A DNA stretch of 64,000 nt from Nitrososphaerota archaeon. Its GTDB lineage: Archaea; Thermoproteota; Nitrososphaeria; Nitrososphaerales; Nitrosopumilaceae. Of this stretch, positions 2,997 through 10,073 are shown one piece after another. Location of the stretch: assembly GCA_028866895.1 (NCBI GenBank), contig JAGWHF010000001.1:1-64000 (forward strand), in the 5' to 3' direction. Within the stretch, counting starts at the first letter, position 1. The number at the start of each line of letters is the position of its first letter. The translations under genes were made by a program, and so were the position numbers. The notes under the pieces were generated by a model. It made no database searches. It was not told where the DNA came from and saw nothing but the letters and a program-made list of their open reading frames with translations.

Positions 2997-3590
2997 TTAA
3001 TTGCCAAATTCTTTTGCTAATGCCTCCGCAATGTAAGCCTTATTCTCGCAATATAGATCTATGAGAGTTCTAACTTTCGATGTAATTTTTTTATTCTTTA
3101 TTGTTACAGGATTATCTTCAAAATCATATTTGTAAAGATAAACAGGAGTGTCTCCCCTTGCCAAAAATTTGATTTCATCCTCCAGAAAATGTTCCTCTGG
3201 TAAGTACGCATAGATTGCTGGGTCGGTAACTTGACCCTTATGTTCTTCTAATGCCGTATTCAAACAGAATATCGCCCCTCTCTCACTTAGATAATTGATA
3301 GTTTCCTCTCTTTTCATTGCTAATGAGAATCTATCATGCAATTCCATTTTCCTAAACTTGCTATAGAAACTAATTAGCTCAAGAGGCGAGGTAACTACAT
3401 ATTTCTTACCACCTTTCTTTGACGGTCCGGTTTGTGATACGTAACCTAATTGGACGAGTTGTTTTACAAATGAATTGACAGTGGCCCCGAATTTGATGCC
3501 CAAATAGTCTGCTATCTCACGCTGTCCAAATCCGTCATAGTGAGTCAGCATGTAGAACAACATTTTGTACCTTAGCGGAGTAAAATTCAA
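2997..3590 (-). CDS. AbiEi-like winged-helix transcriptional regulator / antitoxin
   Basis: The 197-residue protein has an N-terminal winged helix (about residues 5-70): FGQREIADYLGI and TVNSFVKQLVQLGYVSQ fit helix-turn-helix, and the GGKKYVV stretch fits the wing. The remainder has the pattern of AbiEi-type antitoxin C-terminal domains (AIFCLNTALEEH, then DPAIYAYLPEE, ending in SKVRTLIDLYCEN). In type IV AbiE systems AbiEi represses its own operon and counteracts the AbiEii nucleotidyltransferase. Here the matching AbiEii-like gene is at 5703-6854, on the opposite strand beyond a GHKL ATPase. The start is a TTG; an in-frame stop upstream excludes a longer form. The four-half-site dyad at 3592-3649 abuts the start codon, which strongly suggests autoregulation. 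The family assignment is from pattern only. Confidence 0.7.
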   Translation of the reverse strand: MNFTPLRYKMLFYMLTHYDGFGQREIADYLGIKFGATVNSFVKQLVQLGYVSQTGPSKKGGKKYVVTSPLELISFYSKFRKMELHDRFSLAMKREETINYLSERGAIFCLNTALEEHKGQVTDPAIYAYLPEEHFLEDEIKFLARGDTPVYLYKYDFEDNPVTIKNKKITSKVRTLIDLYCENKAYIAEALAKEFGN

Positions 3591-3591
3591 C

Positions 3592-3649
3592 TGATCTATG
3601 GTTAACTAAATGATCTATAAAAATAGATCAGTTAAAAGATAATAGATCA
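3592..3649. promoter_or_regulatory. Symmetric operator of four TGATCTAT half-sites
   Basis: TGATCTAT occurs at 3592-3599 and 3611-3618, and its reverse complement ATAGATCA at 3623-3630 and 3642-3649. Both the inner and the outer pair are centred on the same point, 3620.5, and half-sites on each side are 19 bp apart, close to two helical turns. The site covers the region where the TATA element of the minus-strand AbiEi-like gene (start 3590) must lie, and is about 140 bp before the GHKL start. It is the likely binding site of the winged-helix regulator. Confidence 0.75.
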
Positions 3650-3706
3650 TTAAATTACCAAATTATAATAATTTCGTGAACATAAATCAGGAAACGGTCA
3701 TGTTTT

Positions 3707-3774
3707 TCCGGACATAAAATTTAGATATATTTATCATGTGATATAATATCCGGAAAAGCATATTATATTCCGGA
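3707..3774. promoter_or_regulatory. Three TCCGGA boxes in the GHKL operon promoter
   Basis: TCCGGA occurs at 3707-3712, 3749-3754 and 3769-3774, spaced 42 and 20 bp apart, near multiples of the helical turn. The last lies in the palindrome TTCCGGAA, 15 nt before the ATG at 3789. In such AT-rich sequence three GC-cored hexamers stand out. They could be a second operator or the BRE/TATA neighbourhood of the plus-strand promoter (ATATAATAT at 3741-3749 is a TATA candidate). Confidence 0.5.
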
Positions 3775-3788
3775 ATTATATTCAATAC

Positions 3789-5702
3789 ATGACTAATTCA
3801 ATAGACGTGAATATCACTCCAGACAAGACGCTAATTCAAAAACTGGGATTGATAGGTTACAGAACAGAGCAGGCCATCGCAGAATTAGTTGATAATTCAA
3901 TTGATGCGAGGATTGAAAATACATCAGAGATAATTGAAGTAATTCTAAGTTTTGAAAATCGAACTGTTACTGTAAAGGATAATGGAATTGGAATGGACAA
4001 GGAAGATTTGACAAAGGCAATGACTATTGCAAAAGGAACAAAGGTTGATGGCAAATTAGGTAAATTTGGAATTGGAATGAAAAGTGCTTGCTCAGCACTT
4101 GGGAAAAACTTTACAATTGTAACATCAAAAAAAGATTCTAGAAAGGAATATTCAGTTGTATATGATGAAGACGAATGGTTATCCAACAAATCTCTATCAT
4201 GGACTAATTTTAAAATCACAGAACGTGAGCAAGAAAAAGACAAAGAGTGGAACGGTACAAAAATAGTAATTTCGAAATTGAAAGTACCGATTTATTCCAA
4301 TCAAGTAACAAATTTCAACGAAAGCTTTGGAATTAGATATGCACCATACATATTAGATGGACAAATTCAGCTTCGGATAAACACTACAGTATGTAAACCG
4401 CAAGAACCAGAAATAGTGGAAGGAACTAGAAGAGATATACACATCACACTGTTGGATGGTTCGACAATAAAGGGATATGTTGCATTACTAACAAAGAGGT
4501 CAATAAAGGGACATTACGGTATTCATCTATTCAAAAATAGCAGATTGATAAAAGCTTATGAAAAATTTGGATTTAAACCACACCCAGAAGTAGCAAAAAT
4601 AATAGGGAAACTAGATCTAGATTTTGTTCCAGTAAATTTTCACAAAAGCGCATTCATCGAAGATTCTCCAGAGTATCAGACTGCAGAAAGAGCATTTGCA
4701 AATGAAGAAAAGGTGCAACTAATCCTGAAAGAATCTAGAGCAAGAAATGAAACACAAGTTACCCCCAACATAGTTTTTGAATACATAGCTGGTGACGCGC
4801 CACCTCGTCAGCTTGACACTAGAATTACTGCGAAAGCAGGAAAACGGTTACTTGATGAGACAAATGACTTCACTCTTAAACTTGGAAATAACGATGTATC
4901 TATCTCATTCACAGATTCAACGACAGACTCCTTATACGAAATAAACTGGGTAGGGAATAAATTACTGGTTTCTATTAATAAGGATAATCAAATATTCAGT
5001 TATGTGCGTAATCCGCTATTTTTGATAGGACTAATAGCCACGGAAATAGAACTTATTGCAAAAGATCCAAAATTCTATCATGATTTCATAAAACAACGAA
5101 ATTCGAGATTAATGACATTCATAGATGATTGGAGGCGGAAAAAAGAGCCAGTATTTAGAGACCGTCAAGAACAATTGCCACAATTTGCTGGGTACGACCT
5201 TTCTAATGATCTTGCTACCATACACAGCGAATTAAAGAACAAATCTGAAAGCAAGTTTCAATTTACAGCATTATCCACCCTTGTAAGTTACCTCCATTAT
5301 TCCCTAGGAAAGAAAATTTACACCGTGTATACCTTACCTGGAAGTGGGATGTATTTGACTGATCTCTTATCTCAGATTGTTCCCGAAGACTTTGTTGTAA
5401 TCGATAATCCGAAGCCTCAAGACTTGACACTAATCTTGGATACCACTAAGAGTGATAAAATTATCGTGGTTCGTGAATATGCAGAGATCTATGGATCAAC
5501 AATAGCCTTGCCTGAAAAAGCATGGGTGGACCTTGTGAATGAAATTTATACACACAAAATACCTGTGCAAGAAACAGAACTAAAGTACATTCTCGAAGGA
5601 TTGATTGCAAGAAAACTTGTCGATCCAAGTAAGATATTATTGCTGTTGAAACATCAGAAAAAACTGGAAAAGGTAAAAACAATAATTGAGAAGGTTTTGT
5701 GA
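3789..5702 (+). CDS. GHKL (HSP90/MORC-like) ATPase, island gene
   Basis: The 637-residue protein opens with a clear GHKL nucleotide-binding domain. The N-box is around residues 30-40 (AIAELVDNSIDA), the G1 box is DNGIGM (64-69) and the G2 box is GKFGIGMKSA (91-100). A transducer-like segment follows to about residue 330 (RSIKGHYGIHLFKNSRLIKAYE), as in MORC, MutL and HSP90-type proteins, which dimerise on ATP. The C-terminal 200 residues are unfamiliar: about 490-600 contain FTALSTLVSYLHYSLGKKIY and a hydrophobic DKIIVVREYAEIYG strand. It has no kinase H-box, so it is not a sensor histidine kinase. Its TGA is directly followed by the GTG of the nucleotidyltransferase gene, so the two should be co-translated. 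Similar stand-alone GHKL ATPases occur in prokaryotic defence loci; a defence role here is inference. Confidence 0.85.
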   Translation: MTNSIDVNITPDKTLIQKLGLIGYRTEQAIAELVDNSIDARIENTSEIIEVILSFENRTVTVKDNGIGMDKEDLTKAMTIAKGTKVDGKLGKFGIGMKSACSALGKNFTIVTSKKDSRKEYSVVYDEDEWLSNKSLSWTNFKITEREQEKDKEWNGTKIVISKLKVPIYSNQVTNFNESFGIRYAPYILDGQIQLRINTTVCKPQEPEIVEGTRRDIHITLLDGSTIKGYVALLTKRSIKGHYGIHLFKNSRLIKAYEKFGFKPHPEVAKIIGKLDLDFVPVNFHKSAFIEDSPEYQTAERAFANEEKVQLILKESRARNETQVTPNIVFEYIAGDAPPRQLDTRITAKAGKRLLDETNDFTLKLGNNDVSISFTDSTTDSLYEINWVGNKLLVSINKDNQIFSYVRNPLFLIGLIATEIELIAKDPKFYHDFIKQRNSRLMTFIDDWRRKKEPVFRDRQEQLPQFAGYDLSNDLATIHSELKNKSESKFQFTALSTLVSYLHYSLGKKIYTVYTLPGSGMYLTDLLSQIVPEDFVVIDNPKPQDLTLILDTTKSDKIIVVREYAEIYGSTIALPEKAWVDLVNEIYTHKIPVQETELKYILEGLIARKLVDPSKILLLLKHQKKLEKVKTIIEKVL

Positions 5703-6854
5703 GTGTCTGCTACTAACTACCATTTTCGCGAATATCTAGATGGTGGTTTCATCAATACAATAAAAAATGATCATGGTTATACAGATAGTAGTATAATTGA
5801 GCAATTCATAATGGATTATGAAATACTTTTTCATTTGCTCAACGAAATACCTGACCTTGTAATAAAGGGAGGAATGTCTGTTCCTTTCCATATTCCAGAT
5901 AAAAAACTCAGAAGATTAAGCGTAGATATTGATGTCGTCACAAGTTTGGCAAAGGACAAAATAGAGTCTGCAATAGAAAAAGTGAGGCATAATACTAATG
6001 GATTATTCAATATTCCCCAGCCGTATATTCCACAATCTCCTAAAAGGAAATTACCACTACTAACATATTATGTACCATATACATCAAGTATTACAAATCA
6101 AACTAATCGAGTAAAGGTGGAAATTTTTTATGACTTTAAAGATGAATTACCACTCAAATCAATTGATAGTGGTACTGAATTAATTGGTTTCAAGTTGGAC
6201 TATCCATTACGAATCTTTAATCTAAACACCTTGATAGGTGATAAGATCACTACTTTGGGATTTAATACAATAGGATTACTTGAAGAAAAAAGATCTGATA
6301 CAATAAAGCACATCTATGATGTTGGAACGTTGATTAGATTAATAGAAAATCAAGCATCCGCTGAGAAACTGTTGGAAATCTTTCAACAGGTCGCTGCATA
6401 TGAAAATTCCTTTAATGATAAACAATACTCATATGCGGACATTATTGCTGACATTATATCATCATTGGATTCATTATTGATTCAAGGTGCGGGGTATTCA
6501 TTAGAGTCATCACATGAAGGAAGATATTGTACCTTCAAAACTCAGCTTTTACAGAAAGGCAATTCATACAATAAATTGAACCATGTAAGTGATATTCTTT
6601 TAATAAAATTACTCGCTTCTTATCTGCAATTATCAATTAATGGTAAAATCAGGCAGAAGGAAGTTGTCGATGGATTTTATGGAGATTTGACAAGATTCAA
6701 TTCTATTATCTCACAGGACGGACAACAAAAGAAACAGAGTAGAAAGAAAATAATCCAATCTTTTGATACTAGAACGAAGGGAGATTTTATCAACACAATA
6801 GCTCCCGCAGAGCAAGTTTTCTTGTTTAGCAGAATCGAAAATCTACAAAGTTAG
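5703..6854 (+). CDS. AbiEii-like nucleotidyltransferase toxin
   Basis: The 383-residue protein shows the DNA polymerase beta-type nucleotidyltransferase motifs of the AbiEii/AbiGii family: KGGMSV at 55-60, then RLSVDIDVV at 71-79 with the paired aspartates that bind metal. Later GDKITTLGF and RSDTIKHIYDVGTL fit the family's conserved lysine and (R)xxD(I/V)YD segments. Family members transfer nucleotides to RNA (for example tRNA acceptor ends in MenT-type relatives) and halt growth; the target here is unknown. The start is GTG with zero spacing from the GHKL stop, so the toxin is tied to the ATPase rather than to its expected antitoxin gene, which lies divergently at 2997-3590. Composition is AT-rich like the rest of the island. 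Confidence 0.8.
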   Translation: MSATNYHFREYLDGGFINTIKNDHGYTDSSIIEQFIMDYEILFHLLNEIPDLVIKGGMSVPFHIPDKKLRRLSVDIDVVTSLAKDKIESAIEKVRHNTNGLFNIPQPYIPQSPKRKLPLLTYYVPYTSSITNQTNRVKVEIFYDFKDELPLKSIDSGTELIGFKLDYPLRIFNLNTLIGDKITTLGFNTIGLLEEKRSDTIKHIYDVGTLIRLIENQASAEKLLEIFQQVAAYENSFNDKQYSYADIIADIISSLDSLLIQGAGYSLESSHEGRYCTFKTQLLQKGNSYNKLNHVSDILLIKLLASYLQLSINGKIRQKEVVDGFYGDLTRFNSIISQDGQQKKQSRKKIIQSFDTRTKGDFINTIAPAEQVFLFSRIENLQS

Positions 6855-6942: not shown

Positions 6943-7395
6943 GTGGGTCGTATGGGTAACATAAACAAGAACCTGCTAGTCTATGATAAGTACGTAAAAT
7001 CAGAGACAACTAGAAACCAGTACAAGTATTTTTTCAAGAAGTTTCCAGAGTTGGCTAAAATAAAGAATGGAAGAGATCTGCTACAGCTCAAAGATTCATA
7101 CCTTCAGGAAATGATCGAAGACTATATCCTATATCTTAGAAAAAGGTCAAGCCCGAACTCTACGACTCCGATCACTGCAGGCTTGCGGTTATATTTTTCA
7201 ATGCATGATAAGGTTCTCAATTGGCAACGCATTCAAAAAATGATACCTGAAAAGGTCAAGAAGGCAGGATATAGTGCGTATCAGACTGAAGATATTCAAA
7301 AAATGCTGGAATTTAAAAAAAGGAAAAATCTAAATTATGTTCCAAAGAAACTTTCCTCCACTAACATGAGTACAGTAAATAATAATTCTATCTAG
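6943..7395 (+). pseudogene. Truncated tyrosine recombinase (integrase) N-terminal fragment
   Basis: The 150-residue product resembles the N-terminal SAM-like core-binding domain of archaeal tyrosine integrases: YDKYVKSETTRNQYKYFF, then EMIEDYILYLRKR, then KVKKAGYSAYQTEDIQKML, which is where the catalytic domain normally begins. It then ends after a low-complexity tail (NLNYVPKKLSSTN). The catalytic R...H-x-x-R...Y residues are absent, and nothing downstream to 7467 restores them. Start is GTG at 6943, or ATG at 6952. It is either a decayed integrase or a free DNA-binding fragment. Its place beside repeat copy 1 fits a relic of the element that brought in the HD and ImmA genes. Confidence 0.65.
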
Positions 7396-7467: not shown

Positions 7468-9153
7468 ATGTTGACAGTTATACCGATGGATAAATTTACA
7501 GTAGATCGGAATTCTAAGGAGTGGATTCCGTCTGGCACGGAACTCGACGATCTGTTAAAACCGCTTAAAGTAATAAGAGATCCAATACATGGAGATATCA
7601 GACTTACAGAGTTAGAGTCAGCCGTAATTGATACAAGAGAATTTCAAAGATTACGAACTATTCAACAGCTTGGACCTTCATCTCTGGTATATAATGGAGC
7701 TACTCATACAAGATTTGATCATTCTATTGGAGCAGTTGACGTAACTCAATACATGATAAATAAAATTAACATTAACTCAAAACAATACCCTGACCATTTT
7801 CTTCCAGTAGATAACTATATCGTTCTTCTAGCCAGGCTTTATGCTCTTATTCATGATGTTGCTCATATTGCCTTTGGTCATACTCTGGAAGATGAAGGTA
7901 AATTATTCGATTCCCAATGGGATGATAATAAAAGGATAGATGTTTTTCTTGGGGAAAACTCCGAGATCGGAAAAAGAATAATTCAGTATGCAGGCTATAA
8001 GACATTACAGCATTTAAAGGAAATTCTTCTGGCCCATTCTGATGATGAGATACAGCGATTGGAATATCCTATTGTATGTGATATAGTGGGCAATACTATT
8101 TGTGCAGATTTGCTAGACTATTTGACTCGTGATATGTATTACTCTGGGCTTAAGGGTACATATGATAAAAGATTTCTGGATTACCTTACTGGACAAAAAT
8201 ACAATAACAAGTTAAGGCTGGTTATATCTTTGTTCAAACCCATGAAGGATGAATACAGGAGAGATGTTGTATCGGAAATAATGCATCTTTTAAGACTGAG
8301 GTATTCTTTGGCAGAAAGAATCTATTATCATCACACAAAGATTGCCGCATCAGCAATGCTGATTTCTGCGGTAAATATTGCTAAAATAAAAAATGAACAA
8401 TGGTTGATGGATGATCTATTCAATTTTGGAGATCAGGAACTACTTCATAAATTAGAAACCGATCAATCCTCTCCAGATGAGGTCAAGTTCATAATAAAAC
8501 AGTACCGTCGACGTAGTCTCTATAAGCCAATTTTTATCGCTTCCTATGGACAGGTAAAAGAAGGAGATTCATTCTCTTTGAAGAAAAAGGAAATTACTGA
8601 TGAGCTAGCAAAAGATCCCAAAAAGAGATATGATCTGGAGAGAAAATTAGAAAATGGGATTCTTCCACCTGGAAGTGTATTAATTTATTGTCCACCAAAA
8701 GGAATGGGTAGAAAAATAGCGGAGGCAAAAGTACAATGGAGAGGAAATATTATTCCACTCAAAGATGTAGACCATTATGGTATCGGTGAGGAAACTAGAA
8801 AAATAATGAAACAACATGAAGAGTTATGGAGATTGTATGTGTTTGTAACATCTGATTGTTATAATTGGCCTCAAATAACAAAGGTTGTTATGGATTTTAA
8901 TAAAGCAACAGGATTAAATCAAGAACTAGCTAGATTTGATATAGCCAAAAACGCTTCGCCACCTGCTCATGAAGAAGTTATCTATAGGCATATACTAGAA
9001 TACAAGAAAAAAAATAAACAAGATGTACCACCTGAAATAATACAATCAGTATTGGCTAGTGCAAATGCCCCTGTCCCAGGCCAAGAAATGCCAAAAATAT
9101 TAAATTATAATGAATTCGAAGAAATCGTCAAAGACCTAATCAAAAAGAAATGA
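7468..9153 (+). CDS. HD-domain phosphohydrolase (SAMHD1/dGTPase-like), island copy
   Basis: The 561-residue protein has the HD-hydrolase layout: VIRDPIHGDIRL, REFQRLRTIQQLG, then H85 in TRFDHSIG, the doublet H129-D130 in LIHDVAHIAFGH, and a distal aspartate in ADLLDYLTRD (about 214-222). Relatives such as SAMHD1 and dGTPases hydrolyse dNTPs, and several act against viruses by nucleotide depletion. The C-terminal 300 residues have no match I can name. The core paralogue at 44173-45420 shares the same motif order but is 146 residues shorter and GC-rich. An ATG at 7486 is an alternative start. The stop overlaps the next start (ATGA at 9150), so it is translationally coupled to the ImmA-like peptidase. 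Confidence 0.8.
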   Translation: MLTVIPMDKFTVDRNSKEWIPSGTELDDLLKPLKVIRDPIHGDIRLTELESAVIDTREFQRLRTIQQLGPSSLVYNGATHTRFDHSIGAVDVTQYMINKININSKQYPDHFLPVDNYIVLLARLYALIHDVAHIAFGHTLEDEGKLFDSQWDDNKRIDVFLGENSEIGKRIIQYAGYKTLQHLKEILLAHSDDEIQRLEYPIVCDIVGNTICADLLDYLTRDMYYSGLKGTYDKRFLDYLTGQKYNNKLRLVISLFKPMKDEYRRDVVSEIMHLLRLRYSLAERIYYHHTKIAASAMLISAVNIAKIKNEQWLMDDLFNFGDQELLHKLETDQSSPDEVKFIIKQYRRRSLYKPIFIASYGQVKEGDSFSLKKKEITDELAKDPKKRYDLERKLENGILPPGSVLIYCPPKGMGRKIAEAKVQWRGNIIPLKDVDHYGIGEETRKIMKQHEELWRLYVFVTSDCYNWPQITKVVMDFNKATGLNQELARFDIAKNASPPAHEEVIYRHILEYKKKNKQDVPPEIIQSVLASANAPVPGQEMPKILNYNEFEEIVKDLIKKK

Positions 9154-10073
9154 GTAATCAAAAATTAGGATTAGCCTTTGAAAGTCTTGCACAGAAGCTA
9201 GGATACAAATCTGAAAAACTCGGTAATATTGACGAACAAAGAAATCAAATACGAAGATTACTAGACTCGTATATTAATAATCTTCTTTGGAAAGCAAAAG
9301 AACTAACACCACCTATCAATCCAGAAAATATAGCACCGTTAGTAGGAGTGAGAGAAATAAGAAAAACCTTATGGCATTCAGATGGTTCTCTTATTCCTAG
9401 AAAAGATGGATTTGAAATCATAATAAATTCTCAAACAAAAAATGTGCGGCAACGTTCTGTATGTGCACACGAAATAGGACACACTTTTTTTTATAATTGG
9501 AATGATGGAACACCAACAAAAATTTTCTATGACATACCTTACTGGGAGGAAGAAGGCATGGTATATGAAATTGCTAGAAAAATATTGATACCAACTAATC
9601 TAATTACTAAAATGGTAAAATCTAGACACATTACTTTTCAAAATCTACAAGAAATGGCTCAGACTTTTGGAGTCTCTTATGAGTTCATTATTAGGCGATT
9701 GGGCGATCTGGATCTTCTGGACTCTGTTATTTTACTGATAGAAATTATTAATGAGAGCAAAACCGATTACAAATACAAAGTTAAAATCAAGAACAAACCA
9801 ACTTGGGATAAAAATAAATTAATTATTAATGGAGGTAAATTCATAGCTAAAAATGACAAACTTCATGATCTCCTCGATACAGTCTCTAAACAATCTAATC
9901 CAGAAATAATTCATAAAAAAATGGAGCTATCTAATTCTTCAAGTGATAAATTTCAAATAAGTATAGCCAAAATGGGAGGTACTAAACCTTACATTGTTGT
10001 ATTAATATCACCTGAACCAAAAGAAAACAAGCAGCTCAAACTGGATGATATGGCCTTAATCTCATCGAGTTAG
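9150..10073 (+). CDS. ImmA/IrrE-family metallopeptidase
   Basis: The 307-residue protein carries HEIGH at 107-111 after RSVCA, the zinc site of ImmA/IrrE peptidases, with a downstream glutamate in YEIARKILIPTNLI (about 139-152), the usual third-ligand helix. FQNLQEMAQTFGVSYEFIIRRL (about 165-187) matches the family's helix-turn-helix-like tail (LA..F.VS...A..RL). The last 110 residues are unassigned. Family members cleave repressors or regulators on DNA damage or signal input, as ImmA does for ImmR in ICEBs1. No Xre-type partner lies next to it; the coupled neighbour is the HD hydrolase, which it may regulate. The island ends just downstream, with repeat copy 2 at 10118. Confidence 0.8.
   Translation: MSNQKLGLAFESLAQKLGYKSEKLGNIDEQRNQIRRLLDSYINNLLWKAKELTPPINPENIAPLVGVREIRKTLWHSDGSLIPRKDGFEIIINSQTKNVRQRSVCAHEIGHTFFYNWNDGTPTKIFYDIPYWEEEGMVYEIARKILIPTNLITKMVKSRHITFQNLQEMAQTFGVSYEFIIRRLGDLDLLDSVILLIEIINESKTDYKYKVKIKNKPTWDKNKLIINGGKFIAKNDKLHDLLDTVSKQSNPEIIHKKMELSNSSSDKFQISIAKMGGTKPYIVVLISPEPKENKQLKLDDMALISSS

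Follow-up and report, generated by a model that had tools for sequence, protein, structure and literature searches.

What does a MORC-like ATPase do when it is encoded directly in front of an AbiEii-type toxin? The question is raised by a locus in a 64,000-nucleotide stretch (hereafter the window; assembly GCA_028866895.1, contig JAGWHF010000001.1, positions 1 to 64,000) of the genome of a Nitrososphaerota archaeon of the family Nitrosopumilaceae. An initial annotation, made from the sequence alone, had proposed a three-gene module comprising a divergent AbiEi-like regulator, a GHKL ATPase and an AbiEii toxin. We verified the three open reading frames (ORFs) at 2997-3590 (reverse strand, 197 amino acids), 3789-5702 (forward strand, 637 amino acids) and 5703-6854 (forward strand, 383 amino acids), all lying where it had placed them. 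The stop codon of the ATPase gene does abut the start codon of the nucleotidyltransferase (NTase) gene (TGA followed directly by GTG), and the ATPase gene is present in a single copy in the genome. Sequence comparisons indicate that the ATPase and NTase genes are a real, recurrent operon, a variant of AbiE in which a MORC-like ATPase is fused to the antitoxin. The unit has two genes rather than three.

One line of evidence for this reading comes from the C-terminus of the 637-residue protein, whose last 200 residues had been left unassigned. Residues ~470-635 (5196-5693, forward strand) match an AbiEi C-terminal (DUF6577) domain, predicted to neutralize the toxin. Proteins of ~260-300 amino acids from other families in the phylum match ATPase residues ~455-635; DUF6577 was detected in all nine of these proteins and an AbiEi_4 winged helix in seven. 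Directly downstream of eight of the nine (L139, L140, L084, L180, L183-L186) lies an NTase gene from the family to which the window NTase belongs. Alignment of the ATPase C-terminus with two stand-alone AbiEi proteins of winged helix-turn-helix (wHTH)-DUF6577 type using hhalign gave a probability of 98.9% over 161 columns, and wHTH-AbiEi profiles matched it with E 4e-17 (E 1e-16 in the genome search). The Pfam DUF6577 model matched 6 of 18 ATPase relatives (best E 2.9e-7), exceeding the cut-off in L081. Pfam found no wHTH in the 18 ATPase members, in which the N-terminal ~320 residues are GHKL-S5. Because the C-terminus is homologous to the DUF6577 domain of wHTH-AbiEi proteins encoded upstream of the same NTase family, we assign it as an antitoxin-type domain. 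By this homology the ATPase protein occupies the antitoxin position, and its GHKL-S5 part substitutes for the wHTH. In AbiE systems, AbiEi needs only its C-terminal domain for neutralization, and the wHTH is required for repression (PMC3985639).

The N-terminal part of the protein was assigned to the GHKL superfamily (Pfam HATPase_c_3, E 6e-23; HATPase_c also matches), as the initial annotation had it. In profile searches the best matches were the structures of MORC4, MORC3 and MORC2 (E 2e-18 to 4e-8), followed by HtpG and other Hsp90 chains. The ATP-binding domain (residues 24-128; 3858-4172, forward strand) contains the N-box E32/N36, the DxGxGM motif D64-M69 and the GxFGxGxK motif G91-K98, with G156-T157 further downstream. 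An S5-like domain follows at residues ~236-302 (4494-4694, forward strand), with K286 as the putative catalytic lysine. HATPase_c_3 was found by Pfam in all 18 ATPase relatives and Morc6_S5 in 10 of 18; the latter is sub-threshold in the window copy and above the cut-off in L081. Full-length relatives within the archaeal family are 32-48% identical. Motifs N, G1, G2 and G3 (E32/N36, D64-G68-M69, G91/F93/G94/G96/K98 and G156/T157) and S5 K286 are invariant in the 14 NTase-paired ATPases, and the same GHKL motifs and K286 hold in the wider set of 18, with T157 nearly invariant. The protein is thus probably an active ATPase of MORC type. We took GHKL motifs N, G1, G2 and G3 plus an S5 domain with a basic residue as defining MORC and paraMORC proteins, and all of these features are present. 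The ATP-binding motifs and S5 lysine are also conserved in the MORC/paraMORC ATPases described from prokaryotic restriction systems (Iyer 2008, PMC2292703). Unlike those, this protein is fused to an antitoxin domain, and its operon contains an NTase only, with no superfamily II (SFII) helicase, nuclease or restriction gene. The main text of Iyer 2008 mentions neither nucleotidyltransferases nor toxins. We also considered membership in the MZA system, and rejected it. The GHKL N-terminus does resemble MzaB (PADLOC 1.6e-9, NCBIfam 8e-13), but only ~120 residues align (residues 16-139), the score of 47.6 bits is far under the curated cut-off of 850, and no other MZA gene was identified among the window genes scanned.

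The downstream gene (5703-6854, forward strand) encodes the predicted toxin, and its identification as an AbiEii-type NTase also stood (Pfam AbiEii, E 2.8e-12; PADLOC AbiEii, E 3.6e-26). Residues G56-G57 (motif I), R71/D75/D77 (motif II, R...DxD), K181 (motif III) and D206 (motif IV) are invariant in 18 NTases drawn from both architectures, the ATPase-linked and the wHTH-linked. Mutating motifs I-IV abolishes AbiEii toxicity (PMC3985639). MenT relatives extend tRNA 3' ends (PMC10435456), and by analogy extension of tRNA 3' ends is our best guess for the activity of this enzyme. The locus therefore resembles the AbiE type IV toxin-antitoxin (TA) systems (AbiEi/AbiEii; MenA/MenT) in its NTase with motifs I-IV, in the AbiEi C-terminal domain located directly upstream of and translationally coupled to the toxin, and in an inverted repeat at the promoter, here a candidate operator. 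It differs in that the antitoxin has no N-terminal wHTH and instead carries a MORC-like ATPase of ~450 amino acids.

We next consider how often the pair recurs. The ATPase fusion occurs in 18 of 250 genomes of the archaeal family, a group of probable ammonia oxidizers. These genomes span 6 of 22 genera, and no further member of the genus to which the window belongs is among them. An NTase ORF lies downstream in 14 of 19 readable loci (the window, L078, L080, L081, L072, L136, L137, L158, L164, L166, L167, L169, L170 and L171), and tblastn retrieved a 15th, in L168 (54-55% identity to that of L166). Wherever its start is clear, the NTase gene overlaps the ATPase stop codon, touches it or lies a few bases away. 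Of the neighbors that the initial annotation expected across relatives, the AbiEii-type NTase thus recurs (15 of 19 loci), but the divergent wHTH gene is found at none of the other loci. A single branch divides GHKL-linked from wHTH-linked members in the NTase tree (support 100/99) and in the antitoxin-domain tree (96/96), both unrooted, a separation that fits a single domain swap. Defense genes adjoin a number of the copies. L137 has two DNA methylases and L083 one methylase; L081 has the C-terminal piece of a Type ISP restriction enzyme together with PDC-S33, L079 two PDC-S46 proteins and L168 a PD-T4-4-like ATPase. Three scans of viral contigs yielded no relatives, and tblastn searches of phages and plasmids detected N-terminal GHKL similarity only, with no hit covering 80% of the query. 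Full-length bacterial fusions appeared neither in plasmids nor in one genome-contig scan (66 loci, GHKL part only), which is weak evidence as it used short peptides from one sequence. Separately, three loci of the same archaeal family (L085, L143 and L144), judged by eye, encode other GHKL proteins (~590-612 amino acids) beside DEAD-like helicases and HKD/PLD-like proteins; these neighborhoods resemble the restriction operons with MORC ATPases that Iyer 2008 describes.

A palindrome, TCCGGAA-N12-TTCCGGA (3749-3774), overlaps what is presumably the operon's core promoter and is a candidate autoregulatory operator. It occurs once in the genome, with an additional TTCCGGA at 3706-3712. The form GAA-N11-12-TTC is found upstream of the ATPase start in 11 loci, at a constant distance (55-65 nucleotides before the TPD codons) and with TATA-like interiors (GAAAAAGnnTTAAATTC); the remaining loci lack this exact form. 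The arms vary by locus: CCG/CGG in the window, CTA/TAG in three loci, and TGC/GCA, CGC/GCA, GTA/TAC and others elsewhere. We assessed their covariation with a test anchored on GAA-N10-12-TTC, scoring only the bases outside the anchor. Of these arm bases, 32 of 44 pairs were complementary within loci, compared to 17.2 with random re-pairing (p 5e-5). The co-varying arms suggest autoregulation with drifting specificity. The palindrome may instead form an RNA hairpin, if transcription begins upstream of it.

Taken together, we think it reasonably likely that the operon is a type IV (AbiE-like) toxin-antitoxin or abortive-infection system in which a MORC-like GHKL-S5 ATPase has replaced the antitoxin winged helix. 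In such a system, the GHKL-S5 dimer would keep the NTase inactive through the AbiEi-type C-terminal domain. The dimer would sense infection or a DNA or stress state through its ATP cycle, neutralization would end, and the freed NTase would nucleotidylate tRNA or another target and arrest growth. The palindrome would mediate repression of the operon, with the ATPase-antitoxin protein perhaps acting as its own repressor. A more ambitious version, which we put forward tentatively as possible rather than probable, makes this a distinct TA class. There, an ATP-driven, MORC-type clamp antitoxin senses foreign or damaged DNA and neutralizes the AbiEii toxin, and its dimer reads a fast-diversifying palindromic operator over its own promoter.

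Several observations weigh against this interpretation. The NTase was not found in 4 of the 19 loci (L079, L082, L165 and L083, the last itself truncated), and the ATPase may accordingly have other roles or partners. The arginine of AbiEii motif III (R180 in PMC3985639) is not among the conserved NTase columns. Homology of DUF6577 to the tested COG5340 AbiEi C-terminal domain did not emerge from a PDB search, which returned AbiEi (6y8q) as a weak match through the winged helix only. Single-sequence AlphaFold models were poor (pLDDT 51 for the divergent wHTH protein and 47 for the antitoxin domain alone), and we did not use them for fold searches. NTase distances do correlate, in favor of the interpretation, with those of the ATPase N-terminal part (Mantel r 0.77) and of the antitoxin domain (r 0.80), with p 2e-4, but this correlation cannot tell coevolution apart from common ancestry. 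Single-locus palindromes are mostly not significant alone when compared to dinucleotide shuffles and related loci are not independent; the joint covariation test is therefore supportive and not proof. Two of the NTase-less loci have features of their own. At L082:3401-3811 (genome G063), the ATPase-antitoxin gene overlaps a 136-amino-acid ORF without a family match where the NTase would be expected, a possible alternative partner. Genome G058 encodes two ATPase-antitoxin copies ~20 kb apart, and the L079 copy without an NTase is the one flanked by the two PDC-S46 proteins.

Other explanations need to be weighed against a neutralizing antitoxin. In WonAB, the ATPase partner is needed for toxicity and does not neutralize (PMC12137116), and VcSduA and the Ymh HEPN proteins each join an effector to a GHKL or paraMORC ATPase. 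By analogy, the ATPase could activate the NTase effector upon infection and use the AbiEi-derived domain as a docking site only. We consider this unlikely, given that the docking domain descends from an antitoxin family and that the ATPase is kept without an NTase at 4 of 19 loci, as expected for an antitoxin that outlives its toxin. VcSduA (GHKL-Shedu) and the paraMORC-Ymh HEPN fusions do share with our protein a GHKL ATPase joined to a defense module, but theirs is fused to the effector nuclease or RNase, whereas here it is fused to the antitoxin domain and the toxin is separate. A kinase is a less probable alternative still: the GHKL protein would phosphorylate the toxin or antitoxin on DNA damage, with no MORC/MutL-type switch. 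GHKL kinases CapK and VapK control immune operons and a VapC-type TA system in response to single-stranded DNA (PMC13373217), and AbiEi/MenA4 C-terminal domains have been described as kinase-type (PMC10435456). However, the S5 domain with its invariant lysine and the best profile similarity, to MORC proteins, favor ATP hydrolysis over a SpoIIAB-type serine kinase, and Pfam finds no STAS domain. The GHKL kinase-controlled VapKSC (PMC13373217) likewise has a GHKL-family protein within a TA operon, but it consists of three genes, a kinase-STAS pair and a PIN toxin, with no AbiEi/AbiEii and no MORC-type S5. That the neighborhood is decayed or due to chance, without function, is hardly credible. 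The distribution is patchy and the NTase has been lost from some copies, but the pair recurs, the catalytic residues are unchanged at a mean pairwise identity of 27-48%, and the two G058 ATPase copies differ by dN 0.13 versus dS 0.66 (nonsynonymous and synonymous divergence; the ratio was saturated in every other pair tested). In reading the ATPase and AbiEii genes as a unit and not as a chance neighborhood, the initial annotation was right.

The remaining alternative is the three-gene module, with the divergent MarR-like wHTH protein P0001 (2997-3590, reverse strand) as AbiEi antitoxin or repressor of the ATPase-NTase operon. P0001 is divergent and close, and its relatives adjoin AbiEii-like NTases. 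Nevertheless, the resemblance to AbiEi did not hold up: no AbiEi family in Pfam, PADLOC or NCBIfam matched P0001, and hhalign to AbiEi gave 1.8%. The P0001 family comprises four members here, the window copy and three relatives (39-46% identical; genomes G016, G024 and G090). The genes of these relatives overlap an NTase of ~180-260 amino acids (GGWAVW...RDxD; one cut by a contig end) that is sub-threshold for AbiEii in Pfam and has no significant BLAST similarity to the window NTase, P0003. This genomic pairing with a different AbiEii-like NTase is the sole link between P0001 and AbiE. The large operator claimed for P0001 does exist as sequence: its gene begins next to TGATCTAT/ATAGATCA repeats (3592-3649), a candidate operator and probably its own. 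They are separate and different from the operon palindrome, which the initial annotation had missed. With P0001 absent from every other ATPase-NTase locus and an antitoxin domain already inside the ATPase protein, we judge the three-gene module very improbable and place P0001 outside the system. P0001 is best read, from these comparisons, as the orphan of another wHTH/NTase pair and a bystander of the ATPase-NTase operon. The pairs at L100:5141-6516, L101:5178-6343 and L102:4313-5646, from the same archaeal family, look undescribed; the window has the wHTH half only, and no trace of such an NTase partner was found near P0001. A short ORF at 2840-2965 ending ...SEFPELAP resembles by eye an 80-amino-acid protein in L102 (7166-7408), for which tblastn gave no confirmation.

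The locus lies in an AT-rich stretch at ~2.5-10.3 kb (34% GC, compared to 53% downstream and 43-53% in other sampled contigs of the genome). The initial annotation had noted this composition for the three genes, but it is not specific to them: the stretch holds three further genes, for an integrase-like fragment, an HD protein and an M78 peptidase. The fragment is a 150-amino-acid ORF (6943-7395) that is integrase-like by eye, without a significant BLAST match among the integrases compared (best E 0.29) or a Pfam integrase match; it could be what is left of the element by which the island arrived. At 7468-10073, an HD protein with HD_assoc_2 (561 amino acids) overlaps an M78/ImmA-type peptidase (307 amino acids; PADLOC capP, 8.6e-15), and the two are possibly a separate accessory or defense unit. 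This HD protein is paralogous to, but divergent from, a near-universal HD protein, the resident copy of which lies at ~44.2-45.4 kb. A search for it as a candidate partner of the ATPase-NTase operon was uninformative for that reason, and we did not retain it.

We compared the operon to described systems. None of VcSduA, the paraMORC-HEPN fusions, VapKSC and WonAB combines GHKL with AbiEi/AbiEii. In the literature searched, which did not extend to most subscription journals or bioRxiv preprints, we found no mention of "GHKL ATPase" together with AbiEii, and none of DUF6577. The statement in the initial annotation that no described system has such an arrangement agrees with the papers searched. 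If our reading is correct, an energy-using sensor has been placed within a toxin-antitoxin pair, which would hint at what tells an AbiE system to fire, an open question for AbiE. It would also offer a mechanism for Pfam DUF6577 and provide an archaeal case of a MORC-like ATPase working outside restriction systems. The diversifying operator would give a direct route to finding the region of the protein that reads DNA.

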